A stretch of 53,148 nt of DNA from Bacteroidota bacterium (GTDB taxonomy: Bacteria > Bacteroidota > Bacteroidia > Bacteroidales > SZUA-534): NCBI GenBank assembly GCA_003250355.1, contig QKGS01000049.1, positions 1 to 53,148 on the forward strand, given 5' to 3'. A model generated the notes under the pieces. It did not search any database and was not told the DNA's origin. It saw nothing but the letters and a program-made list of their open reading frames with translations. The translations under genes were made by a program, and so were the position numbers. This document shows positions 12,367-33,200 of this stretch, one piece after another (within the stretch, counting starts at the first letter, position 1; each line of letters begins with the position of its first letter).

Positions 12367-13443
12367 ATGGCACAGTTAGAGACAAAAATGATGGCTGCTT
12401 TCCTACCCGGAAACAGCACAGTACAGATGAAAGAAGTAGATATACCAACTCCGGGACCGGGGCAGGTACTGGTACGCACAAAATCGTCGACCATTTGCGG
12501 AAGCGATATACGTGCAATATACCGCGAGCATTTGGGCAAAGGGCCCGAGGCATATCAAAATAAGGTAGCCGGACACGAACCATGCGGACAGATTGTAAAA
12601 TGCGGTTCGGGAATGAAGCGCTTTAAAGAAGGCGACCGTGTTATACTTTACCATATATCGGGTTGCGGAGTATGTAACGACTGCCGACGCGGATATATGA
12701 TATCGTGTTCATCGCCACAGCGTGCAGCTTATGGCTGGCAACGCGACGGCGGTATGGCTCCGTATATACTTGCCGATGAGAAAGATTGCGTACTGCTCCC
12801 CAACGAGCTTACATATACCGATGGTGCACAGGTAGCCTGCGGTTTTGGAACCGTATACGAGGGGTTAGAAAAAGTGGGTATATCGGGCAACGATGCGGTA
12901 CTTGTTGTAGGCTTGGGACCGGTTGGTTTGGCTGCTCTTATGCTTTGTAAGGCATTAGGTGCCAACAAGCTTGTAGGAGTTGATACAGTACAGGAACGTT
13001 GCGATATAGCAAAAGAACTGGGCTTAGCCGATGAGGTATTTGTTTCAGGTACCGATACTTTAAACAAGGTGAAAGCTTGTACTTACGAAGGCAAAGGGTT
13101 TGAGAAAACTATCGACTGTTCGGGTCATACTCTTGGGCGTCAGCTTGCAATACGTGCTACCCGCCAATGGGGTAAAAACGTTATGATTGGCGAAGGAGGA
13201 ACTTGCGAATTTAACCCAAGCCCCGATATTATTCACGACCAAATATCTATCCACGGTTCGTGGGTAACTAATATTTGGCGAATGGAAGAACTTGTAGAAA
13301 GGCTTGTACGTTGGGGCATACACCCCGAAGATTTGGTAACACACCGTTTTGAACTTAAAGATGTAAGCAAAGCTTATGAGCTAATGGATGGCGGTAAATG
13401 CGGTAAGGTTGCCGTAGTGTTCGACGAAGAGGTTAAAAAGTAA
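12367..13443 (+). CDS. Zinc-dependent medium-chain dehydrogenase (threonine/sorbitol dehydrogenase-like)
   Basis: 358 residues. The catalytic zinc ligands are Cys44 (TICGSD) and His70-Glu71 (AGHEPCG). The structural zinc lobe has Cys100, Cys103, Cys106 and Cys114 in the spacing C-x2-C-x2-C-x7-C. A GLGPVG nucleotide-binding motif follows. Members of this MDR group oxidise secondary alcohols of polyols, sugar alcohols or L-threonine with NAD(P). Its place between a GH29 enzyme and an AllA-like cupin, and near an aldo-keto reductase, points to a sugar or alditol substrate, perhaps a reduced L-fucose or L-galactose derivative. The substrate is inferred only. Confidence 0.88.
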   Translation: MAQLETKMMAAFLPGNSTVQMKEVDIPTPGPGQVLVRTKSSTICGSDIRAIYREHLGKGPEAYQNKVAGHEPCGQIVKCGSGMKRFKEGDRVILYHISGCGVCNDCRRGYMISCSSPQRAAYGWQRDGGMAPYILADEKDCVLLPNELTYTDGAQVACGFGTVYEGLEKVGISGNDAVLVVGLGPVGLAALMLCKALGANKLVGVDTVQERCDIAKELGLADEVFVSGTDTLNKVKACTYEGKGFEKTIDCSGHTLGRQLAIRATRQWGKNVMIGEGGTCEFNPSPDIIHDQISIHGSWVTNIWRMEELVERLVRWGIHPEDLVTHRFELKDVSKAYELMDGGKCGKVAVVFDEEVKK

Positions 13444-13623: not shown

Positions 13624-14127
13624 ATGAAAAAAATAAAAGTAGAACAGCTATCACTTGAAGCATACAAACCATTTGGGAGTTTTGCAAACTTAATTAACCC
13701 TACCGATGATAAACTGGGTACTCCGCCTGTTGAATTTTTCAGAGACCAGCTCCAAATTGATGTATCGCCGGCTAACAGTTGGAGTTACTCGTGTTGCAGG
13801 GTTGAACAACGCCCCTTGGTTATTGATATTTTGGAGTACCATTCGGCCTGTGGCGAAGTAGTATTACCGCTTGATAATGATATTCTGTTACAAGTAGGGC
13901 CTGCTACTGCAAATAAAAATAATATACCGCTTGACAAAATGAGAGTATTTTATGTACCCAAAGGGACAGCCATAACAATAAAACCCGGCGTATGGCATTG
14001 GGGGCCATTTAGTAGTAACAATAAGCCGGCAAATATTCTAATAAACCTGCCCGAGCGTACTTATGCCAATGATTGTGTGGTAGTTGAGTTAGTAGAAACA
14101 GACTATATAGGTATTGATTACAAGTAA
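13624..14127 (+). CDS. AllA-like (ureidoglycolate lyase family) cupin protein
   Basis: A 167-residue cytoplasmic cupin resembling the ureidoglycolate lyase family (PF04115 type), with the early motif YKPFGSF, the central SCCRVEQRP and EYH segments, and the later FYVPKGTAITIKPGVWHWGPF block typical of that fold. AllA acts on ureidoglycolate in allantoin breakdown, but no purine or allantoin genes are present here. The neighbours are sugar genes, so a role on a hydroxy acid, lactone or sugar-derived intermediate is more likely. It follows a terminator and lies 231 nt before the second GH86-like gene. The reaction is unknown. Confidence 0.7.
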   Translation: MKKIKVEQLSLEAYKPFGSFANLINPTDDKLGTPPVEFFRDQLQIDVSPANSWSYSCCRVEQRPLVIDILEYHSACGEVVLPLDNDILLQVGPATANKNNIPLDKMRVFYVPKGTAITIKPGVWHWGPFSSNNKPANILINLPERTYANDCVVVELVETDYIGIDYK

Positions 14128-14358: not shown

Positions 14359-17300
14359 ATGAGAACACGATTATTTTTTTCCTGTTTAGCTTTAGTATAT
14401 GCAGGAATTATAAACGGACAAACAGTCGACATTGATGTTAATCTTAACATTAACCACAAGGTAGATACAATTACAACTTTTGATAGGAATAAATTTGTTG
14501 TAATGCACGGCGATGTTATAGAACCCGAATGGGGAAATTACGGAGGAACAAATGCAATAGCCGATGTTAGAAACGATTTTTTGAATGGCTACGATGTTTA
14601 TTTGGGACGCAACAGTGGTCCGGCAACAAATGCTATAACAAATGCAACTCAAAACCCTTCAAAACCGGGATATGCTTTAGAGAGCAGTATTCAGTCGTTA
14701 GGTAATTCATATAAGAGCTATTACGGAGCCGATGATAAAGTATTTGCTGCCAGAAATAATATAGTTGCAGTAGCTCAAATTACCACATGGCCATTTAATA
14801 ATAAAAATTATACAAAGTTTATATATTCACAAACCAACACCCCCTCAGAGCCATTTGGAACAGCAACAGGTGAGGCTTTAAGCGACTATTTAACCTACTA
14901 CTACGGAGGTAGTGGCCAGCCCAAACCCGAGTATTTTGAAATAATAAATGAACCTCTCTACGATTTAATAATCAAGCACCCTAATGAGAGCGATCCTGAA
15001 ACAGTATTCAAATATCACAGAACAGTAGCGCAGATATTAAAAAAAGACCACCCCGATGTAAAATTAGGAGGTTACTGTGTAGCATTCCCTAACTTCGATG
15101 AAAATAATTTTAAACGCTGGGAAGAACGTTGGAGAATGTTTGTTGATACTGCCGGTAATTATATGGACTTTTGGTCAATTCACCTTTACGATTTTCCGGC
15201 TGCCGGAGGTAAACAACAATACCGAAAAGGGAGTAATATGGAAGCAACATTCGATATGCTCGACCATTATAGTACTCTTAAACTGGGACACACTAACCCG
15301 TATGTTGTTTCTGAATTCGGCGCATCGGTTCACGACTATCAGGGAGCATGGAGCCCTTACCGCGACTGGTTACATATGAAATCAGTTAACTCCATGATGA
15401 TGCAGTTCATGGAGCGCCCTAATATGATAGGCAAAGCTGTAAATTTCCTAATTGCCAAAGCTACCTGGGGTACTACAGATGTTAACAATACCTACCCTCA
15501 CCGATTATTGCGTATGGAAAATGAACCTGCCTCGCTTACAGGCAATTGGATATATTCCGATATGGTTAAAACCTATCAGCTGTGGCAAGATGTAAACGGC
15601 AAAAGAGTTGATTCTTACTCATCAGACATTGATGTTATGGTAGACGCTTATGTTCAGGGAAATAAAGCTTATGTTATATTAAACAGCTTAGAACTGGAAA
15701 ATGAAAAAACCATAAATATTAACATAAAAGAGAGCACCGGAATAACACCTTCTTCGCTTTTAGTTCGTAATATGTATCTCGACGAATCGAATGCCGTAAA
15801 AGATCAAAATGCCACAATACTATCTGCTGATAATTATTCCGGTAATATTCCAACACAGTTTACACTTAAGCCCGAAGCTACAATTATTTTACAGTACACT
15901 TTATCGGGCACCGTACCGGTAGGTGAAGTTTTAACTGAAACAAAATATTTTGCCGACGACTATTATAAAGCAATTACAGCAGGTACCGAATATACATTTA
16001 ATGTAAATGGAGTAACACAAGGTGCTACATATAATGAAACTGTTTTACGTATTGGTATTGGTCGCGGACATTTACTATCGAAAAAACCGTCTATAACTAT
16101 CAATGGCTATGAAATAACTGTACCCGATAATTACAGAGGCGATAACCAAAAAGACAGACCTGTATATTTTGGAGTGCTTGAAATACCTGTTCCCGCCAGT
16201 ATTATTGCTCCCGACAATATTGTAAAAGTAACGTTCCCCGACGATGGTGGATACATAAGCAGTATAGCGCTGCAAGAGTATAATTTTTCGGCGAAACCAT
16301 TCAGAAGCAATGCTGTATCAGAGGTTAATATTTATCCGTCATCATTAAGTTTAGGTATTGGTCAAAACAGAGTATTAACTGCAATTATTACTCCTGAAAA
16401 TGCAGCTGACAAACGAGTAACATGGAGTTCTGACAATGCCGGTGTTTCGGTTAGCGCCGACGGTGTTATTACCGGCGTGTCGGTTGGCAGTGCTGTAATT
16501 ACCGCAACATCGGTTACCGATGGTAGTATACAAGCAACTTGTAATGTAACCGTAGAAACTTCAAGAGTACCTGTATTGGTAGATACAATTATTGTAACTC
16601 CGGCTAATGCTGACATTATTGAAACAAAAACTCTGCAACTGAGCTATAAAATTCTTCCGGTCGATGCCGACGATAAAACTATTTCATGGTCTGCCTCAAA
16701 CAGTAACGCAACCGTAGTTGACGGATTAGTAACAGCTGTAACCAATGGCAGTGTAAATATTAATGTATTAGGAACTAATGGAAAAGTTGGAACAAGCTCT
16801 TTAAATATTATCGACCGTATACCCGGTTCTATTGTGTTGAAAAACGAAAGTGCTTACTCTCAAATTCAAGTAGGTACAAGCTTAACTATTGAGTGTAACT
16901 ACACTACATCAACAGGCGTTACTGTTTCTAATATCCGCTATTCGCTAGAGCTTGTTGATGCCGATAGTAATTTATTGAAACTGTTCAATGGCTACGATAA
17001 TACTGCAATTGAAACTACAAGCGGAACATCTGCCACAACTCTAAGTACCAGAAGAGCCGTAGCTTCGTCAGAACTACCCGAAGGACAGTATTATGTTTTA
17101 AATGTATCTATGACAGAGTCGGACGGTAATGTAGTTATTAAAAGCATAAGAACTACTGTTGCCGATTATACTAGTGTATTGGAAAATATTGCTTCATCAG
17201 TATTTATATATCCAAACCCGGCCAACAATTTTGTAAATATAAGCGGGTTAACCAATGGAGTTTACTCTGTTAATATTTGCAGTATGCAGGGAACAACTAT

Positions 17301-17424
17301 AATTAATACTGAACTCGATTATTCTTCAGAACAACAACTAAACATTTCAGATTTGCCTGAAGGCATATATACACTAAACATTTCGGGTAAAAACATCAAT
17401 AAAACAATTTTGTTGAAAAAATAA
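14359..17424 (+). CDS. GH86-like secreted endo-glycanase with Big2 repeats and T9SS sorting domain
   Basis: 1021 residues with a signal peptide ending near INGQ. The GH86-like catalytic domain (about 20-510) starts with VDIDVNLNINH and carries Glu198 in IINEPLYD (acid/base) and Glu319 in VVSEFGAS (nucleophile), as in agarases and porphyranases of clan GH-A. After it come the GH86-associated beta-sandwich (about 525-650), two Big2 domains (about 656-734 and 742-819), a roughly 115-residue module of unknown family (about 821-937) and a type A T9SS sorting domain (IYPNPANNFVNI, about 950-1021). There is no CBM6. The catalytic part is clearly closer to the paralogue at 30268 than to the one at 1708. 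It should be exported across both membranes and act on long-chain galactan; the linkage cut is not known. Confidence 0.83.
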   Translation: MRTRLFFSCLALVYAGIINGQTVDIDVNLNINHKVDTITTFDRNKFVVMHGDVIEPEWGNYGGTNAIADVRNDFLNGYDVYLGRNSGPATNAITNATQNPSKPGYALESSIQSLGNSYKSYYGADDKVFAARNNIVAVAQITTWPFNNKNYTKFIYSQTNTPSEPFGTATGEALSDYLTYYYGGSGQPKPEYFEIINEPLYDLIIKHPNESDPETVFKYHRTVAQILKKDHPDVKLGGYCVAFPNFDENNFKRWEERWRMFVDTAGNYMDFWSIHLYDFPAAGGKQQYRKGSNMEATFDMLDHYSTLKLGHTNPYVVSEFGASVHDYQGAWSPYRDWLHMKSVNSMMMQFMERPNMIGKAVNFLIAKATWGTTDVNNTYPHRLLRMENEPASLTGNWIYSDMVKTYQLWQDVNGKRVDSYSSDIDVMVDAYVQGNKAYVILNSLELENEKTININIKESTGITPSSLLVRNMYLDESNAVKDQNATILSADNYSGNIPTQFTLKPEATIILQYTLSGTVPVGEVLTETKYFADDYYKAITAGTEYTFNVNGVTQGATYNETVLRIGIGRGHLLSKKPSITINGYEITVPDNYRGDNQKDRPVYFGVLEIPVPASIIAPDNIVKVTFPDDGGYISSIALQEYNFSAKPFRSNAVSEVNIYPSSLSLGIGQNRVLTAIITPENAADKRVTWSSDNAGVSVSADGVITGVSVGSAVITATSVTDGSIQATCNVTVETSRVPVLVDTIIVTPANADIIETKTLQLSYKILPVDADDKTISWSASNSNATVVDGLVTAVTNGSVNINVLGTNGKVGTSSLNIIDRIPGSIVLKNESAYSQIQVGTSLTIECNYTTSTGVTVSNIRYSLELVDADSNLLKLFNGYDNTAIETTSGTSATTLSTRRAVASSELPEGQYYVLNVSMTESDGNVVIKSIRTTVADYTSVLENIASSVFIYPNPANNFVNISGLTNGVYSVNICSMQGTTIINTELDYSSEQQLNISDLPEGIYTLNISGKNINKTILLKK

Positions 17425-18757: not shown

Positions 18758-20179
18758 ATGGGGAACCCTAATTCTGAAAAACGTTCTAATTCGTATTTAT
18801 GGTTTGTAAGTACGGTGGCTGCCTTTGGTGGTCTTTTATTTGGTTACGATGCCGTAGTGGTATCGGGGACGGTATCACAGGTTGAAACACAGTTTTCATT
18901 TTCTCCCGCAGAGTTAGGCTTTTATGTTAGCTGTGTGTTGTGGGCCTGTATGTTAGGTTCAGCCATTGCCGGCTGGATAGCAGACCGGTTTGGCCGTAAA
19001 AACACGCTTCTTGCAGCTGCTGCATTGTTATTGGTTTCAGCAGTATGGAGTGCAACGGCAGGCTCTGTAACCGGTCTTCTTATAGCTCGTATTATTGGAG
19101 GTTTCGGAATAGGTGCAGCCACAATGGTTTGCCCCCTTTATATATCAGAAATATCTCCCGAAGTGTATCGCGGCCGTATGGTAACTTTGTTTCAGCTAAC
19201 TATTACCGTTGGCATTATTATGTGTGTATTTGCTAACTGGGGCATTCTTACTTACGCTCAGGGAAATACCGAAACACTACTCCCCCATTGGCAAAAGTTT
19301 CTTTTTGTGACGGAAAACTGGAGAGCTATGTATTTAGCCGAAGCTCTGCCCGCTATTATATTTATGGCTACCGCATTTTTTATACCCAAAAGTCCGCGAT
19401 GGCTAATGCAACAGGGGCGCAAAGATGAAGCTCTGGCAGTACTGAAATTATTCAACAGTGAGCAAAAAGCAAAAGAAACAGTTGATGAAATAGAGTGTAC
19501 ATTAATAGTAGATTCAAATGTGAAATTCGGTGATTTGTTTACCAAAAAACTTCGTACTCCGCTTATTCTTGCTATTCTGGTTTGTTTTATGTGCGAAGCC
19601 AGTGGCGTATCGGTGGTATTCTATTACGGACCGCAAATATTTGAAGATGCCGGATTTGGTTTAGGTGGTTCTCTTGGCGGTTTTGCAACAATTGCAATTG
19701 TAAACTTTATAGCAACTCTGTTTGCTCTGCGGTTTGTTGATTCTGCAGGGCGTAAAAAACTTCTTACAGTTGGTGTAATAGGAACTGTTGCTTCGCATTT
19801 TTTAATCGGAGCCCTATTTCTTGGTGGAGTTACCGGATGGCCTATTGTAGTAGCAATAAACATATTTGTAGCGTTCTTTGCTTGTGCTTTAGGGCCTGTA
19901 AAGTTTGTACTTACATCAGAAATATTTCCAAATAAGGTGCGCGGTAAAGCTATTGCCATTTCAACATTTACAATATGGGCAGCAAGTGCTACTGTGGCAT
20001 ACTTGTTCCCGATAATGAGAGATGCAATGTCAACAGGTTTTATCTTCCTTGCATTTGCAGCTGAACTGCTGATATTCTTCCCTGTTATTTACCGCATGAT
20101 GCCCGAAACTAAAGGGAAGACTATTGAAGAAATAGAGCGTTCATGGTTTCACGACGATGCCTGCAAAAAAGTTAGCTAA
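18758..20179 (+). CDS. Sugar porter family MFS transporter (XylE-like)
   Basis: 473 residues and about twelve transmembrane segments. Sugar porter signatures are present: [14 protein letters not shown] near the start, DRFGRKN in the 2-3 loop, [15 protein letters not shown] after segment 4, PKSPRWL before the central loop and [12 protein letters not shown] at the C-terminus. It should bring a monosaccharide across the inner membrane by proton symport. This is a different family from the FucP-type carrier in the same locus, so two distinct sugars may be imported, for instance a D-galactose and an L-galactose-configured product of one polysaccharide. It is divergent from an AraC regulator. Confidence 0.9.
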
Positions 20180-20270: not shown

Positions 20271-20527
20271 CAAGTCAGGCTTACAGCCTTTTGTGTTTGA
20301 CGAGTTTGTATAATACTCAGGGTTAAAACCCTGTGCTTTTAAAGAATTGCCTTTCAGGCAATCTATTCAAGTTATAATAATTAGACTTATAAATATTAAC
20401 ATTTACGCAAGCAAAATAAATGGCAGTACTAGCTCTGTAAGAGCGGCCTGTAAAAACATAGGGTTTAAACCCTATGTATATAATAGTAGAGTCCCCCAAA
20501 AGGTCTGAAAGACCGACCTGTAGTTAT
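20271..20527. repeat. REP-like cluster of short palindromes
   Basis: Includes AGGCTTACAGCCT (20277-20289), CAGGGTTAAAACCCTG (20318-20333), GCCTTTCAGGC (20350-20360), GCTCTGTAAGAGC (20433-20445), AGGGTTTAAACCCT (20460-20473) and GGTCTGAAAGACC (20501-20513). At least six hairpin units sit between the transporter and the glycyl radical enzyme gene. Confidence 0.8.
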
Positions 20528-20672: not shown

Positions 20673-22946
20673 ATGAAGGAGTCAAAAGTAAATAAGAAGT
20701 TTATTCCGGACAGCAGAATACAGTCTTTAATCGACAGACGTTTAGAGTTAGTAGTTGACCAAAAGCGTCACGTACTTTGCGATAATGCAGAATTTTTAGT
20801 TTATCACTGGTCAGGCAAAGCATCTACATTTGCTCCGGCAACAGGTGAGCATGCCGATACCGAGCAACGTATTGAGATTGGCGACCACAGTGCACGTGTC
20901 GATAATGGAATGGAATTCCCTTACACAAAAGATATCCCATCGCGTAAAAACAACAATTTTGAATATACGCCGCTAAACTGGGCTAAAGACTATGCGTTCT
21001 TTATCGACCACAGTCCGGCCGAAGTTTATCCAAATGAATCAATAGTAGGTGAATTTCACTGGCAGTTAGATGAGGCGCGTCACTTCCAGTATCCCGATGA
21101 GCAAAAAAATGCAGGATTCCTTGCGCGTGAATTGGGTGCGGGTGGTATCAGCTTTACTCACACTTGTCCCGATATGAGTATTGGTTTGAAATTAGGTTGG
21201 ACAGGATTACTTGAGAAAGCAAAAAAATACAAGGCAAAATACGAAGCTGAAGGTGACCAGGAGAAGGTTGATTACCTTACAGGTTCTATCATGATAGCAG
21301 AAGGTATTATCCGTTATATCAAGCGTCATGCCGATAAAGCGCGTGAACTTGCAACAAACGAAACAAATAACGACCAGATAAACCTTTACCTGACAGTTGC
21401 CGAAACTTGCGATGCTCTTGCAACGCGTGAGCCGCAAACACTTCGCGAAGCTGTTCAGTGGATGTGGATGTATCAGGTTGTTGAGCGTATGCACGGCCAC
21501 GGAAACGGTTATGGTCGTACCGACCAAATGCTAATAGACTACTACAAGTCTGACATGGAGAAAGGTATTCTTACCCGTCAGGAAGCTCGTGAGTTGGTAG
21601 GTGAAATGTACATTAAGTACGGTAGCTACACGGCTTTAGGTGGTCGTTTGCAAGATGGCAGCGATGCTACAAATGAAATGAGCTGGGTTTGCCTTGAGGC
21701 TTACGACCTTGTTGGTGGAATTAACCACCTTGGCGTAATGTGGCATCCTGATATGGACGAAGATTTCTATCGTTATGCAAATGATATTTTAACACGTCAC
21801 GGTTGTGGTGTTCCAACGCTTGTTAACTACGATGTAATTCACCAAAGTGAGCTTCGCAGCGGATATAAGCCTGAAGATGCATGGAATGTATCGTACAGCG
21901 GATGCCAGTGGTACTGTGGTGTTGGAACTGAGTATAACGATCAGGATGTAAACAGTTTGGTGCTTATTCAACCAATGCAACGTGCTATAAAAATGTCAAT
22001 TGAGCAAAACGTTGACTCATTCGATAAGTTCTGGGATATTTATCACAATGAGGTTGATAAAACAGCCAATGCTCTTGTTGACTTTAAGAATGCAACGTAC
22101 AAATGGCAGGCTAAGGTATGGCCTGAAATGGTAACTACGTTCTGTATGCACGACTGTATTGAAAAAGGTAAAGACTGTACCGATATTGGTGCTGTTCGCT
22201 ATAACTTCACTTCTGTAAATGTGCTTGGAGTACCAAACGTTTCTGACTCAATTTACGCAATCAAAAAGTTAGTTTTTGAAGACAGAAAATATACGCTTGC
22301 AGCAATGCAGGAAGCTATCGATAACGATTGGGCAGGTGAGGAAGTAATGCGTCAGCATTTCTTAAACTGTTCTAAGTTTGGTAACGATGAGGCTGAATCT
22401 GATGATATGGCTGTTAAGGTATCGGAAGATGTACGCGAAATACTTGAAAGCAAGAAAAATATTAAAGGATTCCACTTCCGTCCGTCGTTGTTCCAGTACA
22501 TGGGGCACACTTATGCAGGGCCAATGATGGGGGCAACTCCTGACGGGCGTAATGCAGCTGAGCCAATTGCTCACGGCATGAACCCGATGCACGGACGTAA
22601 TAATAAAGGAATTGGCGCTACAGTCGAATCATTCTGTAAGTTAGATTTTGCAAAATATCAGGGAGGTTCGTTCCAGATTGAGCTTACGCCAAATTTCTTT
22701 AAAGCAGGTTCCGATTCTGCAATGTTAATGGATGCATTCTCACAAAACTTCTTTAGAAAAGGCGGGGTACAAATCAACTTCAACCTGGTTGACCTCGATG
22801 TGCTTGAAGATGCAATGAACGATAGTAAGAATCCTGTGTATCAGGATATTAACGTGAAAGTAACCGGATACTCAAGCCACTTCTGTACTATGGATAAGCG
22901 TTTCCAGAAGGAGTTTATTGAGCGAGTGAATTATCAGAGTTTGTAA
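20673..22946 (+). CDS. Glycyl radical enzyme of the PFL-like superfamily, unassigned subtype
   Basis: 757 residues, close to the usual 750-850 of this superfamily. The C-terminal glycyl radical loop is VKVTGYSSHF with Gly732 as the probable radical site. The catalytic thiyl Cys is expected at Cys411 in YSGCQWYCGVG; a second Cys lies four residues on (Cys415). Glycerol, propanediol and hydroxyproline dehydratases, choline lyase, isethionate lyase and aryl acetate decarboxylases have Cys-x-Glu at this point, and pyruvate formate-lyase has Cys-Cys. This protein has neither, so its reaction cannot be transferred from a known subtype. The activase gene follows at 23482. The surrounding fucosidase, transport and reductase genes suggest radical cleavage or dehydration of a sugar-derived diol, which remains inference. 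It requires anoxic conditions. Confidence 0.9.
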   Translation: MKESKVNKKFIPDSRIQSLIDRRLELVVDQKRHVLCDNAEFLVYHWSGKASTFAPATGEHADTEQRIEIGDHSARVDNGMEFPYTKDIPSRKNNNFEYTPLNWAKDYAFFIDHSPAEVYPNESIVGEFHWQLDEARHFQYPDEQKNAGFLARELGAGGISFTHTCPDMSIGLKLGWTGLLEKAKKYKAKYEAEGDQEKVDYLTGSIMIAEGIIRYIKRHADKARELATNETNNDQINLYLTVAETCDALATREPQTLREAVQWMWMYQVVERMHGHGNGYGRTDQMLIDYYKSDMEKGILTRQEARELVGEMYIKYGSYTALGGRLQDGSDATNEMSWVCLEAYDLVGGINHLGVMWHPDMDEDFYRYANDILTRHGCGVPTLVNYDVIHQSELRSGYKPEDAWNVSYSGCQWYCGVGTEYNDQDVNSLVLIQPMQRAIKMSIEQNVDSFDKFWDIYHNEVDKTANALVDFKNATYKWQAKVWPEMVTTFCMHDCIEKGKDCTDIGAVRYNFTSVNVLGVPNVSDSIYAIKKLVFEDRKYTLAAMQEAIDNDWAGEEVMRQHFLNCSKFGNDEAESDDMAVKVSEDVREILESKKNIKGFHFRPSLFQYMGHTYAGPMMGATPDGRNAAEPIAHGMNPMHGRNNKGIGATVESFCKLDFAKYQGGSFQIELTPNFFKAGSDSAMLMDAFSQNFFRKGGVQINFNLVDLDVLEDAMNDSKNPVYQDINVKVTGYSSHFCTMDKRFQKEFIERVNYQSL

Positions 22947-22951
22947 TTTTT

Positions 22952-22982
22952 AGTACTGAGTACTGAGATATGAGTACTGAGA
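22952..22982. repeat. Heptanucleotide array AGTACTG
   Basis: AGTACTG, AGTACTG, AGATATG, AGTACTG in 7-nt register, starting six bases after the glycyl radical enzyme stop. The AGATATG unit is shared with the array at 10591-10670. Confidence 0.85.
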
Positions 22983-23014
22983 CTTTTGTTCTGCAGAACT
23001 GATTAATTGTAATG

Positions 23015-23437
23015 TGCTACCGCACGATTTTATCGCATGGTATAGAATAAAACCACACGAGGGACTCGTGCGGCAGCAAGGGTTGATATTTTTGTAATCT
23101 ATTGCCTGAAAGGCAATTCTGTAACTGCGCAGGTTTTTAAACCTGTGAAATAGATTAGTTATGGAAATTTAAGGCTGAAAGCCTGACCTGTTTTACAGGG
23201 CGGTCTTTCAGACCTGTTCTTTTAACGATTGCGTAAAATAGGGATAAATCCCTATTCTTATAAAGGTAGGGCTTTCAGCCCATAATTTGACTTAGCTTGA
23301 TAGCTATGCCCATGAGGGAGGTCGGGAGGGTGAGCTTCAAACACCTTAACTTAACGACATTGCTCGTGCGGCAGCAAGTAGTTCTGATGAATCGGATCTA
23401 TCCTCCCCTTGGGGAGGTGCCGATAGGCGGAGGGGGC
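23015..23437. repeat. Composite REP-like region between the glycyl radical enzyme and its activase
   Basis: Holds GCCTGAAAGGC (23103-23113), AGGTTTTTAAACCT (23131-23144), GGCTGAAAGCC (23173-23183), GGTCTTTCAGACC (23203-23215) and AGGGATAAATCCCT (23239-23252). A second family follows at 23311-23361 (GAGGGAGGTCGGGAGGGTGA and a tail ending CTTAACGACATTG), repeated at 26422-26472. CCTCCCCTTGGGGAGG lies at 23402-23417. CTCGTGCGGCAGCAAG occurs twice (about 23054 and 23364). There is no gene in this 535-nt gap. Confidence 0.75.
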
Positions 23438-23443
23438 AAACTT

Positions 23444-23478
23444 GCAACCTGTAACCTGTAACCTGTAACCTGCAACTC
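23444..23478. repeat. Heptanucleotide array GTAACCT abutting the activase start
   Basis: GCAACCT, then GTAACCT three times, then GCAACTC, ending three bases before the ATG at 23482. As with the mutarotase gene, the array occupies the place of a ribosome-binding site. Confidence 0.9.
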
Positions 23479-23481
23479 AAT

Positions 23482-24432
23482 ATGACTGCAAACATATTTA
23501 AAATAGAGCGATTAAATACCCACAACGGTCCGGGCTTCCGGACTGTTGTCTATTTTAAGGGGTGTCCATTACATTGTACATGGTGTCATAACCCTGAAAG
23601 CATTAGTAAGCAAAAGCAGGTATGGGTTAATCATGTAAAATGCATTGGTTGTGTAGAGTGTATCAGAGTTTGTGATTATGATGCTATTTCTGTAGAGGAT
23701 GGTAAAATTGTAGTAAACCAGAAAGCTTGCACAGGTTGCTATGCTTGCACAAATGCCTGCCCTACAAAAGCAATGGAAAAAATCGGACTCGATTACACCA
23801 TAGATGATGTAATGAAGCCCATATTGCAGGATAAATTCCTTTACGATTCTTCCGGAGGAGGTGTTACAGTAACAGGTGGTGAACCGGGGCTGTATATCGA
23901 TTTTGTGACAGAATTGTTTAAGCAATGTAAAGATAACGGTATTCAAACAGCTTTTGATACATCGGCTGCAGTTTCGCCCGAAAAGTTTGAGGAACTCATA
24001 AAATACACCGATATACTTTTTCTTGACCTAAAAATATTCGATAAGCAAAACTCCGTTAAATATACAGGTCTTGAACCGGAGAAACTATCCAAAATGGTTT
24101 ACTGGTTAACAACTCAGAAAATAAAACCTGACCTGAAAATAGAATTCCGTACACCTGTAATTCCGGGAATTACTGATTCTGATAATAATCTTGAAGAATT
24201 TGCAGAAGCAATAGTCTCAAAATTTCCGGGTGCAGAATGGGAGCTGTGTATGTTCAACGACTTGTGCGAAGATAAATACAGAAAATTGGGAATGGAATGG
24301 ACATTGTCAGGAAATAAAATTACAGAACAGGGTTATATTTATTTAAAGCATTTTCAAAAGAAATATCAGGATATAAATATCAAATTGAGTGGGTTTACTG
24401 AGGATTTCAGCAAGTATAATGAGAAACCATAA
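23482..24432 (+). CDS. Glycyl radical enzyme activating protein (radical SAM)
   Basis: 316 residues. The radical SAM cluster motif CxxxCxxC is Cys28, Cys32 and Cys35 (GCPLHCTWCHNPES). An inserted two-cluster ferredoxin domain follows, with Cys54/57/60/64 and Cys83/86/89/93; this is standard for activases of the non-PFL glycyl radical enzymes. SAM-binding TGGEPG lies near residue 133. It uses reduced [4Fe-4S] and S-adenosylmethionine to abstract hydrogen from Gly732 of the partner encoded upstream. The pair is separated by a 535-nt repeat-rich gap rather than being tightly coupled. The start is chosen from the conserved FKIERLNTHNGPGFR opening. Confidence 0.93.
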   Translation: MTANIFKIERLNTHNGPGFRTVVYFKGCPLHCTWCHNPESISKQKQVWVNHVKCIGCVECIRVCDYDAISVEDGKIVVNQKACTGCYACTNACPTKAMEKIGLDYTIDDVMKPILQDKFLYDSSGGGVTVTGGEPGLYIDFVTELFKQCKDNGIQTAFDTSAAVSPEKFEELIKYTDILFLDLKIFDKQNSVKYTGLEPEKLSKMVYWLTTQKIKPDLKIEFRTPVIPGITDSDNNLEEFAEAIVSKFPGAEWELCMFNDLCEDKYRKLGMEWTLSGNKITEQGYIYLKHFQKKYQDINIKLSGFTEDFSKYNEKP

Positions 24433-24584: not shown

Positions 24585-26204
24585 ATGAGAAAGATATTCA
24601 AAGCAAGTTATTTCCTGTTAGCAGTTACTTTAATTGCAGGTAATGTTGTTGCACAACAAAAACCTCAGGAAAAAGAAAATGCCAGTGAGGTTGACCAATT
24701 GGAAGAGGCAAGAAAAACCTGTGCAGAGTTTAAAGAAGAGTGGCCTTCTATAGCAAAGCACACAACCCCCGAATGGTTTATGGATGCCAAGTTTGGTATA
24801 TTTACATGCATAGGCCCGGCAACACTTGCAACACAGCACAGAACAACAGAATGGTACGGGTGGGCAATGTACGATACTATAGGAGTGCATTGGAATAACG
24901 CACCACGTGATACAGTACCTAATCCTTACGGTGAATTTTACAGACATAAGGAATTATTTGGCGGCGACCAGAATGAGGTTGGATACAAGGATATAATCAA
25001 GCAATTTAAACCAACAAAATTCGATGCTGAAGAGTGGGCAGAGTTATTCCACCAGGCTGGTGCTAAATTCATGGGACCTATCGGTATTTTCCACGATAAC
25101 TACCTGAACTGGGATTCTGACATCAGTCGTTGGAACAGCATGGATATGGCAGGTGTTGATATTACAGGTGACCTTGAAAAGGCAGTTCGTAAGCGCGATA
25201 TGAAATTCCTTATAACTTATCACCATGCATTTACATGGTACTGGTATTACCACTCATTTGCTTTCGATGGAGGAGTACCTGGCAATGAAGACCTTTACGG
25301 AAAACCTCACGCTTTCTCATCAGATGGCGATAGCTTTTATCCTTACCCTGATGCAGACTATGAGCAAATGTGGTTTGATATATTAAAGGAATCAGCAGAA
25401 AAATACAGCCCTGATTTATATTGGTTCGATATGGGTCTTGAGCTTCTTAGCGATGATATTCGTAAAAAAGCATTTGCATACCTTTTAAATCATGCACACG
25501 AGAAGGATCAGGATATAGGTCTTACTTACAAAATTAAGTACGATGTATGCATTCCTCCTTCAGCAGGTATATTAGATTATGAAAAAGGTCGTTCTACAGG
25601 TTTACGTGCCGATGCCTGGTTAAGTGATACTCCTCTTGGTGGTTGGTTCTACAATACTCGTCCTTCACGCTCTCCGGAGGCTATTGTTGAAATTCTTTGC
25701 GATGTTGTAAGTAAAAATGGTTGTTTACTACTTGATGTAAGCCCTAAAGCTGATGGTACTATTCCTGAAGATCAGGTTGCTACACTTAAAGGAATCGGAG
25801 AATGGCTCGATATGAATGGTGAGGCTATCTACAATACACGTCCTTGGGTAATTGATGGTGAAGGGCCTACAACATTAGGTAAAGATGGGCACTTCAACGA
25901 AAACTGGGAAGCTATTTATACCGATAAAGATATCCGTTTCACTCGTAGCAAAGACAATAATACACTTTATGTAATTGTATTGGATCGTCCTACTGAAGGT
26001 AAAATTGTATCGAGAATGATGTCAACTATCAACCCTTACTTTACTCGTGAAATTGAAGAGGTATCATTAATAGGAACTGACGAAAAAATTAATCACAAGC
26101 TTGATGTTTATGGATTAGAACTTTCATTCCCTGAAAGCCATCCCGGTAAACACGCATTTTGCTATAAGCTGAAGCTAAAACCTGAGGTTAAGGAAGAGAA
26201 GTAA
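24585..26204 (+). CDS. Divergent GH29-family exported glycosidase
   Basis: 539 residues with a type I signal peptide (cleavage near VVAQQ) and no lipobox. GH29 features are EWFMDAKFGIF, EWYGWAMY, GYKDIIKQF and YWFDMG, where Asp282 is the predicted nucleophile; DYEKGR further on likely supplies the acid/base Glu. Two pocket motifs differ from typical fucosidases: FHWG is TCIG (Cys75), and HHDGF is FHDNY (Phe169-His170). Those residues contact the sugar hydroxyls in characterised GH29 enzymes, so a substrate other than plain L-fucose is plausible. It is paralogous to the gene at 28329, with which it also shares the downstream hairpin. Confidence 0.82.
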   Translation: MRKIFKASYFLLAVTLIAGNVVAQQKPQEKENASEVDQLEEARKTCAEFKEEWPSIAKHTTPEWFMDAKFGIFTCIGPATLATQHRTTEWYGWAMYDTIGVHWNNAPRDTVPNPYGEFYRHKELFGGDQNEVGYKDIIKQFKPTKFDAEEWAELFHQAGAKFMGPIGIFHDNYLNWDSDISRWNSMDMAGVDITGDLEKAVRKRDMKFLITYHHAFTWYWYYHSFAFDGGVPGNEDLYGKPHAFSSDGDSFYPYPDADYEQMWFDILKESAEKYSPDLYWFDMGLELLSDDIRKKAFAYLLNHAHEKDQDIGLTYKIKYDVCIPPSAGILDYEKGRSTGLRADAWLSDTPLGGWFYNTRPSRSPEAIVEILCDVVSKNGCLLLDVSPKADGTIPEDQVATLKGIGEWLDMNGEAIYNTRPWVIDGEGPTTLGKDGHFNENWEAIYTDKDIRFTRSKDNNTLYVIVLDRPTEGKIVSRMMSTINPYFTREIEEVSLIGTDEKINHKLDVYGLELSFPESHPGKHAFCYKLKLKPEVKEEK

Positions 26205-26611: not shown

Positions 26612-28111
26612 ATGAAAATCAATAAAATCATCTCCATAGCATTGACCCTGCTGATACTAACAGCATGTCAACCGAAAAAAGAACCATTTACCACCGAGTG
26701 GGAATCATTAAAAAAACACAATGCAGCACCGGAATGGTTTGCCGATGCAAAATTCGGGATCTATTTTCATTGGGGAGTTTATTCCGTTCCGGCAGCCATT
26801 GGCGAATGGTATCCGCGCATTATGTATATTCACGATGCAGACTCTACTGAGAAATGGTGGTGGTGGGGAAATGAATACCACAAAAAGACTTATGGTGAAG
26901 ATTTTCACTATCACGATTTTATCCCAATGTGGAAAGCTCCTGAGTTCGACGCAAAGGAATGGGTAGATGTGTTTGAAGGCTCGGGGGCAAAAATAATTGG
27001 TGCTATAGCCGAGCATCACGATGGGTTTTCAATGTGGGACAGTAAGGTGAATGAGTGGAACGCTGCTCAGATGGGACCAATGATCGATGTTGTAAAAGCC
27101 ATTGCAGATGAGACCTATAAGCGTGATTTGAAATTTATGGCAACATTTCATCACGGGTTTCACGGTCTGTTTTATCCTAAAGAAGATAATACGGTTATCC
27201 GCCCGAACAGCGATTTGAATATAAACTACACAAATTGTGTCGTTCCTAAAGACGAGAAGTATAAAAAACTATATGGTACATACTCTTACGAGGAAATGCA
27301 GGAGCTGTGGATTAATAAGCTCAATGAAGTTATTGATGCCACTTGCCCTGACTATATCTGGATGGATTTCGGTCAAAAATTTATTCAGGAAGATTACCGT
27401 AAGCAATTTCTTGCAAATTATTTTAACAAAGCCGATGAATTGGGCAAAGAAGTAGTGGTTAATACAAAAGGAGAGTTCTTCCCTACTGATCTTGCCATTG
27501 TAAATGTTGAACGTTCTACCATGGATAGCATTCAGGATGAAGTTTGGGTTACTGACTTTATTTTAGGATGGGCATGGTCATATATTGAAAAACACCGTAC
27601 AGCTATTTCTCCGGCATTTGCTATCAGAGTTCTTGCCGATGTTGTAAGTAAAAACGGAGTTATGCTACTATCGGCAGGGCCTATGCCCGACGGAACTCTG
27701 CCTGAAGAGCAAGTTGCAACTATGGAAGGCATAGGAGCATGGATGAAACTTTATGGAGAAGCCATTTACAATACTCGTCCGTTTAATGTGTTTGGTGAAG
27801 GGCCAACTGAATTAAAAGCTCAGAAAGCAGATGGTTCTGTAATGTCAGGTCTTGATAAATTGAACAAAAAGGACATTCGCTATACCAGAAAAGGAAATGT
27901 AGTTTATGCCATTCAACTAGGATGGGATAACGAAAGTGCGGAGAAAGTATTAACTTCATTATCAGGTTTTGAAGTGAAATCGGTAAGTGCTTTAGGAAGC
28001 AGCAAAGAAATAGATTGGAAACAGACTAGTGAGGGCTTACTTGTTAATCAGCCAAAAGAAATGCCGGAGCATGCTGATATAGCTTTTGTATATAAAATTG
28101 AGTTGAAGTAA
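26612..28111 (+). CDS. GH29 alpha-L-fucosidase lipoprotein (canonical active site)
   Basis: 499 residues with lipobox Cys19 (LTAC). Of the four GH29 proteins it is the only one with the standard pocket: GIYFHWGVYSVPA (His53), GEWYPRIMY and EHHDGFSMW (His135-His136). The predicted nucleophile is Asp252 in YIWMDFG. It should be a lipid-anchored enzyme that releases terminal alpha-L-fucose, or possibly L-galactose, from oligosaccharides with retention of configuration. It lies between two divergent GH29 paralogues in a run of three on the same strand, each separated by REP-like DNA. Confidence 0.9.
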   Translation: MKINKIISIALTLLILTACQPKKEPFTTEWESLKKHNAAPEWFADAKFGIYFHWGVYSVPAAIGEWYPRIMYIHDADSTEKWWWWGNEYHKKTYGEDFHYHDFIPMWKAPEFDAKEWVDVFEGSGAKIIGAIAEHHDGFSMWDSKVNEWNAAQMGPMIDVVKAIADETYKRDLKFMATFHHGFHGLFYPKEDNTVIRPNSDLNINYTNCVVPKDEKYKKLYGTYSYEEMQELWINKLNEVIDATCPDYIWMDFGQKFIQEDYRKQFLANYFNKADELGKEVVVNTKGEFFPTDLAIVNVERSTMDSIQDEVWVTDFILGWAWSYIEKHRTAISPAFAIRVLADVVSKNGVMLLSAGPMPDGTLPEEQVATMEGIGAWMKLYGEAIYNTRPFNVFGEGPTELKAQKADGSVMSGLDKLNKKDIRYTRKGNVVYAIQLGWDNESAEKVLTSLSGFEVKSVSALGSSKEIDWKQTSEGLLVNQPKEMPEHADIAFVYKIELK

Positions 28112-28328: not shown

Positions 28329-29942
28329 ATGATTATGAATCTTAAAAACTTATTAATTCCCGTAATAGCTGCAACCATGTTTGCAAGCTGTTCAACAGAA
28401 AAATCAAAGTCCGATAAGCCTATGGACGATGACAAAGTAAGCGTTACCACTGCAGAAGTAGATCAGTTAGATGACCCATATCTGGAAGAGTGGCCATCTA
28501 TTGCCCGACATTCTTGTCCTGAATGGTTCCGCGATGCAAAGTTTGGGATATTTACATGTTTGGGACCTGCATCGGTTGCTACACAAGATGGTACAAGTGA
28601 ATGGTACGGTTGGGAAATGTACCGCAAGTCGCCTGTATGGTGGACAAATGCTCCGAACCACACACGTCCGGAAGGAGAAACAAAAGAATTCAAATACCAT
28701 AAAGAAAAGTATGGAGATCAAAAAGACTTTGGTTATAAAGACTTTATTAAATTGTTTAAACCTGAGCAATTTAATGCTGCAGAATGGGCAGAAGTTTTCC
28801 ATGGTTCAGGTGCTAAGTTTGCAGGGCCGGTAGGTATTTTTCATGATAATTACTTAATGTGGGATTCTGAAATAAGCCGTTGGAATAGTGCTGATATGGC
28901 CGGAGTAGATGTTACGGCTGAATTGGAAAAAGCTTATCGCGATAAAGGAATGAAATTTCTTATTACATATCATCATGCCTTTACATGGTGGTGGTATGTG
29001 CATTCTTACGAATATGATGGAGCAAAACCTGGCAATGAAGACCTTTACTGCCGCCCGCACAAGTTTTCTGATAACAACACAAGCTTCGATGAGTATCCCG
29101 ATGAGGAATATGAAGAGCTATGGTACGATAAGCTTAATGAGTCTATTGAAAAGTTTAATCCTGACCTGTTTTGGTTCGATATGGGACTTGAGCTACTAAG
29201 CGATAAAATACGTAAAAAGGCATTTGCACGGATACTTAATAACGCAAAAGTTAAAAATCAGGATGTAGGTATATGCTACAAGATTAAGTATGATGTATGC
29301 ATACCTCCATCGGCAGGTATTCTTGATTACGAGAAGGGACGTTCAACTACTGTGCGTAAAGATCCGTGGTTAAGCGATACTCCGCTTGCAGGTTGGTATT
29401 ATAATGGCAAGCCTTCTCGTACTCCGGAAGCAATTATTGAAATACTTTGCGATATTACAAGTAAAAACGGTTGTTTGCAGCTTTGCGTGAGCCCGAAACC
29501 TGACGGAACTATTCCTGAAGATCAGAAGCAAACTCTTGCAGCAATTGGTGAGTGGTTGGATATGAATGGAGAGGCTATTTATAGTACACGCCCGTGGCTG
29601 GTTGCTGAAGAAGGGCCAACAAAACTTGCTGAAGATGGCCATTTCAATGAAAATTGGGAAGCTATTTACGGTGAAACAGATATACGCTATACCAGAAGCA
29701 AGGATAATAATACGCTTTATGTAATTGTACTCGATAAACCAACAAAAGGTAAGGTTGTAGCTAAAAAACTGGGAACTGTATTTGAATATCTCACAAGAGA
29801 AGTTAAAAGTGTAGAGCTAATTGGTACCGATGCAAAAATTGAATGGAAGCAAAATTTTGCAAATATGACATTCTCATTCCCTGAAAATGCTAATGGAAAA
29901 CATGCATTTTGCTATAAGCTTACATTAGAGCCGGAGAAGTAG
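28329..29942 (+). CDS. Divergent GH29-family lipoprotein
   Basis: 537 residues from the first ATG, with an alternative ATG two codons later. The lipobox is FASC with Cys21. It aligns over its length with the protein at 24585: EEWPSIAR, EWFRDAKFGIF, EWYGWEMY, FWFDMGLELLSD with Asp284 as nucleophile, and DYEKGRST. It shares the same non-standard pocket, TCLG (Cys77) in place of FHWG and FHDNY (Phe171-His172) in place of HHDGF. The two paralogues thus differ in anchoring (lipoprotein here, soluble type I signal there) while keeping the same unusual pocket, which suggests one substrate handled in two compartments or surfaces. The specificity is unknown. Confidence 0.82.
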   Translation: MIMNLKNLLIPVIAATMFASCSTEKSKSDKPMDDDKVSVTTAEVDQLDDPYLEEWPSIARHSCPEWFRDAKFGIFTCLGPASVATQDGTSEWYGWEMYRKSPVWWTNAPNHTRPEGETKEFKYHKEKYGDQKDFGYKDFIKLFKPEQFNAAEWAEVFHGSGAKFAGPVGIFHDNYLMWDSEISRWNSADMAGVDVTAELEKAYRDKGMKFLITYHHAFTWWWYVHSYEYDGAKPGNEDLYCRPHKFSDNNTSFDEYPDEEYEELWYDKLNESIEKFNPDLFWFDMGLELLSDKIRKKAFARILNNAKVKNQDVGICYKIKYDVCIPPSAGILDYEKGRSTTVRKDPWLSDTPLAGWYYNGKPSRTPEAIIEILCDITSKNGCLQLCVSPKPDGTIPEDQKQTLAAIGEWLDMNGEAIYSTRPWLVAEEGPTKLAEDGHFNENWEAIYGETDIRYTRSKDNNTLYVIVLDKPTKGKVVAKKLGTVFEYLTREVKSVELIGTDAKIEWKQNFANMTFSFPENANGKHAFCYKLTLEPEK

Positions 29943-30267: not shown

Positions 30268-33200
30268 ATGAAAGCGAGAAACCTTTTATTCGCCGTGGCT
30301 TTAGTTTTGTGTGGAACACTAAAAAGCCAGACAGTAAATGTTCAGGTTAACCTGAACGTAAATCACCAACTAGGTGCAGTGACCAAATTTGAACGGTCAA
30401 AGTTTGTAACACTTCATGCCGATGTATTATCGTCCGACTGGGATCTGGGAACCAATTCCATTGCCGATACACGTAATCATTTCCTGAATGGGTACGATGT
30501 ATATATGGGTAGAAACACCGGTCCTATTAACGGCGACCTGAACAATGCATGGCAGGATGCCGGCCGTCCGGGATTTGTTGACCCCAATTATTACACCAAC
30601 AGGAGAAACTTCTGGAAAAACTATTACGGATCACGTACATCGTGGCATCAGTACGATGACAGGAATAACCTTATTATCTGTCCGCAACTGCACCCGTTCT
30701 GGCCCGATGGCACAAAGCTTTCTGCCGGATGGGCATTATCAACAAAAAATACTGCTGCCGAACCATTAGGTACAGCAAGTGGTGAATTTTTGGCCAATTA
30801 CGTAAATAAAGTTTTTGGTACAGGAGGCACCGACGGGCAGAGAAAGCCAAAGCTTGTTGAAATTGTTAATGAACCGGTTTACGACCTTGTCGACTGGCAC
30901 GGTTCAGCTTCACTTACAAGCATTTTTAATTTTCATAAAACAGTAGCTCAAAAGGTAAAAGCACTTAACCCCGATGTAAAAGTTGGTGGTTATGTTACTG
31001 CATTTCCCGATTTCGATAAAAACAACTTTAACCAATGGGAAAGCAGATGGAAGTCGTTTATTGATATAGCAGTTTCAAATGTAGATTTTTACTCACTTCA
31101 CTTTTATGATATGCCGGTATTCGGCGGAAAAGCCATTTACCGTAAGGGTGGCGATATTGAAGCTACTTTCGATATGCTTGAGCATTATAGTTACCTCAAA
31201 TTCGGAGCACCAAAGAGTTTTGTTATTTCAGAATACGGAGCTACGGTTCACGATTATCAGGGACCATGGTCATCGTATCGTGACTGGCTACGAATTAAGG
31301 CAATGAACTCTATGATGCTGCAATTCATGTCGCGTGCAAACCTTATTGACCAAACTATAAACTACACTATGCTGAAGGTTGACTGGTGGTCGCCAAGCAA
31401 TAATGGAACCGCCAACTCAACATGGCCCGACCGCCTTTTCCGTAAGGCTAATGAGCCGGCCAGCTACACCGGAAACTGGGTTTATACCGATATGATACAC
31501 TATTATGATCTGTGGAAAAATGTAAACGGGAAGCGTGTTGACAGCTGGTCGTCTGACCTTGACGTAATGACCGATGCTTTTGTAACCGGAAACAAAGCAT
31601 ACGTTATTATTAACAACCTTGATTTTACAAGTAAAACTATTGACCTTACGGTAAATGAGGATCATGGCCTGAATGTCAGCCAGCTTACAATTAAACAGTT
31701 GTATTTGAGTGAGAATAATGCCAGAAAAGACCAAAATACTGTTAAGCTCGATAAAAATACTTACTACTCAAACTTTCCGTCGAAGCTTACTCTGAAGCCG
31801 GAAGGAACTTATGTGTTGGAATACACTCTGAACGGCAATGTGAATATTGATGAAACATCGAAAGAGGTAAAATACTATGCCAACAAATACAAGCAAGCTA
31901 TTTATGCCAATACAGCCAATACATTTGCCATAAATGGCGTAACAAAAGGGTCGTATGGTGAGGCTACATTACGTATAGGTGTTGGTCGTAACCTTGGCAA
32001 GTCTCTAAAGCCAACAGTTACTGTAAACGGAACTCAGGTTAGCGTACCTGACAACATTAAGGGTGATGCACAAACCGACAGAGGTCGCTTTTTTGGTATG
32101 ATTGAGGTTGATGTACCTTACAATGTTCTGAAAACAAACAATACTATAAGTGTTACATTCCCTGACGGTGGCGGGTTCATTAGTAGTATGGCGTTACAAG
32201 CGTACCGGTTTTCTAAACCTATATCACGTAATGGTATAGTTGTTACAACTCCGGGAAGCATTAGTGTTGATAATCCATCGAAATATACAAGTACCAAATA
32301 TGTTTCGGGTGGTAAACTCGACGTGGTTGTAAACTATGAAGCAGGAACAAACAAAACAGTATCGGATACATACAATGGTATTGAAGTACTACTGCGTGAA
32401 ATGACTGCAGACTGGAGCACTGTTGTAAATGATTATAGAGGAAACGCTACTTCAGCTGTTGGTAAGCAAAACGGGCAGGTTACTGTAAGCATCGATCTTA
32501 CCGGAGTAACTCCTTCCAATGAATTACCGGCAGGAAATTTCTATTTCCTAATGCCACATTTTAAAAACAGCGCCGGAGAAGAGCTTGCATTACAAGGTCT
32601 GAACCCTATAAATATTGTAAACGGTACTATTCAGGTTACAGGAGTTACTGTAAATACCAATGCGTCAATTGATGCAGGCAGCACAGTAAGCCTTACGGCA
32701 AATGTGTTACCAAACAATGCTACAAATAAGAATGTTACATGGTCATCAAGTAATACATCGGTAGCTACTGTTAACAGTAACGGTGTTGTTAGTGGTGTAT
32801 CTGCAGGAACAGCTAATATCACTGTTAAAACTCAGGATGGTAATAAAACCGATGTTTGTGTAGTTACAGTAAATAAAGTTGTAGCAGGCAGTATTGCTGT
32901 TGACGATAAAAACAAATACAAAACTACGGAATATAAAGTTGGCGGCACATTAGATGTAACTGTGGTATACAATGCAGGTACCGGAAATACTGTTGCCAAT
33001 GACCTTGGTGGTGTTCGGGTAATGCTTCGGGAATGTACTCCGCAGTGGGCTGTAGTTAACGACTATATTGCAGCCGATGCTTCAGCAATAGGAAAACAAT
33101 CAGGTACAACTGTTCTTTCAATTGACCTGAGCAATGTTCCTCCTACTTCTGATTTACCTGATGGAAATTTCTACTTCCTTTTCCCTCGTTTTATAGCATC

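Follow-up and report, generated by a model that had tools for sequence, protein, structure and literature searches.

The 53,148-nt stretch of DNA analysed here as a whole (hereafter the window) is contig 106 (QKGS01000049.1) of a 3.70 Mb, 99.98% complete assembly (GCA_003250355.1) of a Bacteroidota bacterium, and it encodes a glycyl radical enzyme (GRE) that belongs to a separate, uncharacterised clade fitting no characterised group. In this clade, tryptophan stands in place of the glutamate of the Cys-x-Glu motif. The genomic context suggests L-fucose or L-galactose, and we lean, with modest confidence, towards an enzyme acting on an L-fucose-type sugar itself rather than on a C3 product.

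A glycyl radical enzyme clade with tryptophan in place of glutamate

The GRE gene (20673..22946, + strand) encodes a protein of 757 amino acids of the Cys-x-Trp type. The protein exceeds the Pfam cut-offs for the PFL-like domain (PF02901, 323 bits) and for Gly_radical (PF01228, 57 bits), and translation and alignment place its glycyl radical loop, VKVTGYSSHF with Gly732, at 22854..22883 (+). The thiyl region, YSGCQWYCGVGTEYND, contains Cys411, Trp413 and Cys415, and the codons of the thiyl site GCQWYC lie at 21900..21917 (+). The activase gene (23482..24432, +; 316 amino acids) encodes a radical SAM protein with a ferredoxin-like dicluster insert, as indicated by Radical_SAM and Fer4 dicluster matches and by a score of 263 bits against TIGR02494 (cut-off 174). 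The PFL-like domain, the glycyl loop and the cognate activase make the protein a member of the GRE superfamily, and the thiyl site, read in the sequence, is neither Cys-x-Glu nor Cys-Cys. An earlier note, made by a model from the letters alone, had reported both genes within 20673-24432, GCQWYC with Cys411 and Cys415, Gly732 in its loop, a two-cluster activase and the absence of both Cys-x-Glu and Cys-Cys; re-reading the sequence and the profile matches confirmed all of these.

The NCBIfam GRE models that match the protein all remain far under their cut-offs: the best, TIGR01774, gives 319 against 678 bits, and HYPD gives 265 against 1100 bits. The equivalog cut-offs (HYPD, CutC, sulfopropanediol dehydratases, indoleacetate and hydroxyphenylacetate decarboxylases) were reached neither by the window GRE nor by the homologues at loci L022, L024 and L026. 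Model scores and motif ruled out pyruvate formate-lyase (PFL), HYPD, CutC, sulfopropanediol dehydratases and aryl-acetate decarboxylases as its identity. Among aligned rows of more than 600 residues, the window GRE shared at most 27.7% identity with any row outside the CQWYC group and 47.4% or more with those inside it; in a published GRE network, as the cited passages describe it, characterised types split at a threshold of about 60% identity (PMC6453916).

Two quick trees, both with long branches, were built. In the first (88 GRE rows less 17 duplicates, fragments and E. coli copies), the window GRE lies inside a supported (starred) clade of 26 CQWYC rows. In the second (44 of the 88 rows plus three new ones), a supported branch unites a supported clade of 15 CQWYC rows with one sister sequence each from Flammeovirga, Persicobacter and a Treponema. 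The earlier note had left the subtype unassigned, and this assessment holds. Neither outcome that it had named as speaking against it, clustering inside a characterised subtype or a conserved Glu in the acid/base position, occurred, since the NCBIfam cut-offs are not reached, two trees keep the enzyme apart and position 413 holds no Glu. An AF2 model of the window GRE (pLDDT 85.9, pTM 0.90) has as its nearest folds propanediol dehydratase, glycerol dehydratase and PflD with an anhydrosugar phosphate, tied at Z 34–35, and by sequence the nearest solved structures are glycerol and propanediol dehydratases. A fold common to dehydratases and PflD demonstrates no function.

Scanning 84,980 species genomes by exact short peptides recovered at least 29 homologous GRE loci, 30 with the window, in Bacteroidota, Bacillota, Spirochaetota, Planctomycetota, Kiritimatiellota, Chloroflexota, Lentisphaerota, Chlorobiota and candidate WS1. 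No second copy was found at E 1e-100 among 60 relatives and 395 genomes of the class, where the source genome alone has the GRE. A plasmid search gave 141 records, all below 60% identity, the 15 matches listed being at 26–30%. The patchy spread of the homologous loci suggests horizontal transfer of the gene. Two of the loci carry lesions that reflect decay or assembly error: the activase of L005 (12318-13282) is in two frames, and the GRE gene of L010 (846-3116) contains one stop codon, which lies outside the thiyl site. Moreover, two GRE-bearing genomes are unusually rich in GREs, with 24 PF02901 matches in G012 (VE202-21) and 12 in G023 (a WS1 metagenome-assembled genome, MAG), some of them fragmentary.

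The sequence YSGCQWYC is identical in all 28 sequences that cover it, namely the window and 27 of the 29 homologous loci (L028 and L030 stop short of the thiyl site). Given that these homologues share 47–86% identity with the window GRE, the GCQWYC site is not a product of chance. In a set of 72 sequences, all 26 CQWYC members and the three sisters (29/29) have Trp at position 413, and 40 of the 43 others have Glu; the three remaining outsiders have Ser, like the PFL-type rows. For IseG, the cited passages assign to a conserved glutamate the removal of the proton from the substrate hydroxyl, on the model of other GREs that are C-O and C-N lyases (PMC6453916). Arg272, Glu420, Tyr421, Asp425, Glu485, Gln668 and Glu670 are among the further residues that are conserved in the wider clade and uncommon elsewhere. 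His163 is also found in 33 of the 43 GREs outside the clade.

In the alignment, His163 and His276 of the window GRE stand over His164 and His281 of glycerol dehydratase, and Asp447 of the latter falls under Asp423 or, through a close relative, Asp425. In glycerol dehydratase, these three residues bind glycerol. Because His163, His276 and the Asp align with that enzyme while the Glu has become Trp413, the Cys-x-Trp clade seems to keep a polyol-binding site without its base. A GRE that isomerises or epimerises a sugar, or cleaves a C-C bond, would remove no water and need no Glu base; the clade-wide loss of Glu would suit such a reaction, as would a second cysteine, Cys415, invariant in the CQWYC subclade. 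We nevertheless regard it as quite unlikely, given that the three sister sequences carry Ser in place of Cys415, that the hydroxyl-binding residues of the dehydratases seem kept and that no characterised GRE is known to epimerise a sugar.

Sugar genes around the enzyme in the window and in related loci

The activase belongs to a single BLAST cluster in 24 of the 30 GRE loci, and an AraC-type regulator (PF12833; 17675..18499, −, in the window) to a single cluster in 21. The earlier note had asked whether homologues consistently neighbour GH29 and GH86 genes, and the answer is divided. GH29 genes are enriched near the GRE: genome-wide GH29 counts predict 1.0 such locus among the 30, whereas 8 were seen, all of them in Bacteroidota (P 1.6e-6, with flank lengths entered by hand and loci that are not independent); restricted to a subset of 13 loci, 8 were seen against 0.66 expected. 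Five of these loci were recognised by model (L005, L006, L010, L028 and the window) and three by BLAST cluster with the window GH29s (L004, L008, L013). The association is thus not constant, and no other mapped locus was seen with GH86, a family that was not searched for.

L-fucose markers (GH29, FucP, FucI or FucU, recognised by a model or through a cluster shared with a modelled member) occur in 11 of the 30 loci, or 12 if a GH95-like gene under cut-off in L023 is counted. Some homologues adjoin FucI, FucU or FucP in Spirochaetota and Chlorobiota; for example, the neighbours in Treponema L021 include FucI, FucU and an FGGY kinase. Sugar-type importers (FucP-like, XylE-like, RhaT, ABC or sodium symporter, by cluster or model) are found in 20 of the 30. 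At Diplocloster L012, an AraC regulator, a three-gene ABC importer, the GRE and the activase follow each other on one strand, an order that favours the imported sugar, or a compound one step away from it, as the substrate.

In the window, a sugar operon on the + strand lies upstream of the GRE. It is headed by a LacI-type regulator (6297..7304; profile match), followed by a FucU/RbsD-family mutarotase (7438..7872; PF05025, 145.9 bits), a FucP-type L-fucose/H+ symporter (7977..9299; TIGR00885, 483 bits, cut-off 280), an aldo-keto reductase (AKR) of aldose/aldehyde reductase type (9566..10588; PF00248, nearest solved chains aldehyde and aldose reductases), a GH29 enzyme (10760..12319; PF01120, nearest 4ni3 at 256.9 and 7snk at 252.5 bits), a zinc alcohol dehydrogenase (ADH) resembling threonine and sorbitol dehydrogenases (12367..13443; profile and solved-chain matches) and a cupin of the ureidoglycolate-lyase/DUF4867 group with a putative role in sugar ring opening (13624..14127; PF04115 and PF16161, only solved match 9gyy, a DUF4867 protein, E 6e-5). 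Behind this set, on the same strand, comes a porphyranase-type (GH86-like) enzyme (14359..17424; PF18206 and PF18040). Beyond the AraC gene comes a sugar-porter-family importer (XylE-like; 18758..20179, +; TIGR00879, 325.7 bits, cut-off 237.8), whose cluster is also found in L003 and L026. Downstream of the activase, again on the + strand, are two GH29 enzymes nearest to exo-alpha-L-galactosidase (24585..26204, 7ljj/7snk at 239.8 bits, next enzyme 176.4; 26612..28111, 7snk/7ljj at 288.4 bits, next enzyme 260.7), a further GH29 (28329..29942; PF01120) and a second porphyranase-type (GH86-like) enzyme (30268..33945; PF18206 and PF18040).

Since two of the GH29s are nearest to exo-alpha-L-galactosidase, L-galactose is our first guess for the sugar of the window enzyme, on the strength of sequence likeness. 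The exo-alpha-L-galactosidase concerned comes from Bacteroides plebeius and takes desulfated porphyran oligosaccharides as substrates, in the cited passages of its description (PMC12316285). According to the same passages, porphyran also bears 6-O-methyl-D-galactose, so that the GRE might remove methanol or another group from a modified sugar of this kind, and a URO-D-like cluster, possibly a methyltransferase, is present in L005, L009 and L031. We hold this reaction to be very improbable: that cluster occurs in only 3 of the 30 loci, and some relatives stand beside L-fucose genes outside algal settings. An anhydro-sugar also looks less likely as substrate than L-galactose or L-fucose, because FucI, FucU or FucP lies beside some homologues and because the source genome encodes, away from this locus, an aldehyde dehydrogenase/enolase-superfamily pair that could serve 3,6-anhydrogalactose.

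The source genome gave no FucI and no class II aldolase matches, and it therefore lacks the usual fucose route to lactaldehyde and 1,2-propanediol. This bears on an alternative identity of the GRE, a divergent 1,2-propanediol or lactaldehyde dehydratase at the end of L-fucose fermentation, with its base drawn from another residue. Such a role would agree with the nearest sequences and folds, with the L-fucose linkage, the usual route of which yields lactaldehyde and propanediol, and with the presence of FucI in 25 and of microcompartment shell proteins in 7 of the 30 GRE-bearing genomes. Shell genes accompany fucose/propanediol loci, yet the other 23 genomes have no shell protein, the source genome among them with no match. 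Searching the 30 loci at E 1e-3 with one AldA-type and one iron-ADH query brought up no relative; propionaldehyde dehydrogenase was not a query, and a distant aldehyde dehydrogenase could escape this search. Moreover, Trp replaces Glu throughout the clade. Pontiella sulfatireligans, which holds the GRE (L026), makes 1,2-propanediol from L-fucose without growing on L-fucose, and fucK is given as not identified in either Pontiella strain, in the relevant passages of its description (PMC7356697). Taken with the absence of FucI and class II aldolase from the source genome, these points make the propanediol or lactaldehyde role unlikely. We also considered the GRE as a general replacement for FucI and rejected it, FucI being present in those 25 genomes; in 2 of them, its distance from the GRE is at most 10 kb, a count that contig ends limit.

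Genes of the window operon recur in Bacteroidota. Labilibacter marinus, which likewise has no FucI match, carries the run FucU-FucP-symporter-ADH-cupin-AKR (identities to the window: FucU 80, FucP 66, ADH 82, cupin 79 and AKR 63%), Carboxylicivirga sediminis carries FucU-ADH-cupin-AKR and genome G002 carries AKR-ADH-cupin. Of 13 GRE-bearing Bacteroidota genomes, 4 gave a match to the window cupin, as did none of 394 genomes of the class that lack the GRE (P 6e-7); shared ancestry may explain part of this association. All 13 have FucI, the window-type cupin, or both. A link between cupin and CQWYC GRE in Firmicutes was dropped, the 36–40% homologues there having different surroundings and three of them lying next to other GREs. 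For DUF4867, sugar ring opening or mutarotation has been proposed and an assay by nuclear magnetic resonance found no activity, according to the passages cited (PMC11968277, PMC9594981). These genes fit an oxidoreductive bypass of FucI, in which the cupin would open the pyranose, the AKR would form galactitol and the ADH would yield a ketose.

The GRE might then act on an alditol (galactitol or L-fucitol) supplied by the neighbouring aldose reductase and turn it into a 2-deoxy-aldose, in the way that diol dehydratases treat terminal diols. The mutarotase, aldose-reductase-like, polyol-dehydrogenase-like and cupin genes upstream in the window speak for this, as do the ADH/cupin/AKR set seen again in G001, G002 and G004 and another GRE clade of Diplocloster that is accompanied by AKR, ADH, cupin, sugar kinase and a deoC gene over cut-off. 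However, the cupin is present at 72% identity or more in only 4 of the 30 GRE-bearing genomes, the other 29 GRE loci yielded no homologue of the window AKR or ADH, and no reductase was recognised beside the GRE in Diplocloster L012 or Treponema L021. We consider such a reaction on an alditol unlikely.

The DNA between the genes is itself unusual. A palindrome-rich spacer (22947..23481) separates the GRE from its activase by 535 bp, compared with −14 to 67 bp in 20 other measured loci. A second such spacer lies on the other side of the GRE gene (20213-20522) and has the same motif in inverted copies; within it, an Acido-Lenti-1 RNA match from Rfam (20431-20476, −) scores 38.2 against a gathering score of 37. 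Terminator-like sites at the GRE locus number 8 against 3.4 by chance, the palindromic spacers being among their places, and promoter-like sites show no excess (14 against 13.5 by chance).

A possible reaction on the sugar

We infer the substrate, the bond cleaved and the residue roles from the evidence above. The GRE would act on an L-fucose-type hexose soon after import, as free sugar, ketose or alditol, this sugar being L-galactose in the source organism and L-fucose in many relatives. The activase would place the radical on Gly732, from where it would pass to Cys411, and the bound sugar would lose a hydrogen to Cys411 from one of its carbinol carbons. The hydroxyls would be held by His163, His276 and either Asp423 or Asp425, with Trp413 packing on the sugar. 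The substrate radical would drive out the neighbouring C-O bond (water or ring oxygen) to give a deoxy-keto sugar or a lactone, and the hydrogen would be returned at the end of the cycle. The lost base may be replaced by a clade-specific acid, for which Glu420, Glu485 and Glu670 are candidates. The C-O cleavage step itself is a tentative proposal that we hold with less than even confidence.

Several observations weigh against a sugar-level role tied to L-fucose or L-galactose. No L-fucose-specific marker lies in the flanks of 18 of the 30 loci (19 with L023), the deepest branches L024 and L025 included; several of the contigs are short. Rhamnose is represented as well, by a rhamnose-mutarotase-family gene in L008 and L022 (by cluster; L022 also by model) and a RhaT importer in L009. 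Given that FucI occurs in 25 and a class II aldolase domain in 27 of the 30 GRE-bearing genomes, most of them could use L-fucose by known routes. The L-galactose of porphyran is sulfated, yet there is no sulfatase among the annotated open reading frames (ORFs) of the window, the genome not having been searched. Finally, the residue roles rest on alignment and on the assignments for glycerol dehydratase.

An all-Trp clade that keeps its activase, spans eight named phyla and often lies near sugar genes suggests an undescribed radical reaction. Among the extracts available from open-licence literature on GREs with L-fucose, fucoidan or fucosidase, nothing was recognisable as a CQWYC GRE. Action of the enzyme on free L-sugars, if real, could explain how a degrader of seaweed galactan without FucI or class II aldolase uses them, and it would add a step to the anaerobic turnover of algal and other L-sugars. 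More broadly, the Cys-x-Trp GREs could be a carbohydrate-specialised clade acting on unphosphorylated hexoses without a Glu base, one branch on L-fucose or L-galactose and the other on D-mannose, a generalisation that we consider rather doubtful. If true, it would give anaerobes an entry to sugar catabolism that bypasses the isomerase-kinase-aldolase route.

Comparison with known glycyl radical enzymes

Pyruvate formate-lyase belongs to the same superfamily, but the window GRE lacks its Cys-Cys and scores 106 bits against a cut-off of 994; a PFL-type protein with Cys-Cys is encoded separately in the source genome (L001). The models for trans-4-hydroxy-L-proline dehydratase, choline TMA-lyase, sulfopropanediol dehydratases and indoleacetate decarboxylase match the window GRE at 198–265 bits, with cut-offs of 1000–1100. 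Against 4pkc and 9o8u, catalytic chains of the benzylsuccinate/alkylsuccinate synthases, whose genes are accompanied by genes for additional small subunits, it scores only 91 and 201 bits, respectively.

The glycerol and 1,2-propanediol dehydratases (1r8w, 5i2a/5i2g, 9rcp) share with the window GRE the fold, the Gly loop, the thiyl Cys and the aligned His163, His276 and Asp near the thiyl site. They differ from it in sequence (22–25% identity), in having Cys-x-Glu where it has Cys-x-Trp, and in about 20 residues before the GG segment that the window GRE lacks.

Other Cys-x-Glu GREs also occur in sugar operons of some GRE-bearing genomes, under every NCBIfam GRE cut-off (L069, L070, L073 and L083). 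In Diplocloster genomes G010 and G027 (L073, L087), a Cys-x-Glu GRE shares an operon with deoC, a xylulokinase-like kinase, an AKR and an ADH, and the L073 operon, whose GRE was the one scanned and lies under those cut-offs, adds a ureidoglycolate-lyase-like cupin. This operon suggests a radical route to a 2-deoxy sugar. In a Phycisphaerales MAG, two different GREs lie close together (L022, 7731-14340), the second being Cys-x-Glu, over the TIGR01774 cut-off and under the listed equivalogs.

PflD and YbiW (8id0, 8yjo, 8id7), which open the ring of anhydrohexitol-6-phosphates, resemble the window GRE in fold (Z 32–34). Their radical cleavage of a sugar-like ring, as the cited passages present it, is a precedent for GREs acting on sugar derivatives (PMC12441222). 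In contrast to the window GRE, they have a Cys-x-Glu of their own and form a separate clade, PflD being 26% identical, and their setting differs in that no PTS gene is present among the annotated window ORFs.

A further comparison is with the sister GREs of Flammeovirga, Persicobacter and the Treponema MAG (L089, L090 and L085). The first two lie on plasmids of 640 kb and 157 kb, respectively (L089, 14863-17004; L090, 14830-17010), and each is followed by a small cupin-like protein with no Pfam match; for the one in Flammeovirga, the alignment to the window cupin is weak (hhalign probability 46%). GH47 is found near the GRE in both and GH130 in Flammeovirga, with no fucosidase listed there, so that these enzymes are placed as if for D-mannose. 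All three sisters have C[HN]WMS where the window GRE has CQWYC, and they too are under all NCBIfam cut-offs and so likewise uncharacterised. They share with it Cys-x-Trp, Glu420-Tyr421, Asp425, Glu670 and the VTG loop, within the same supported clade.

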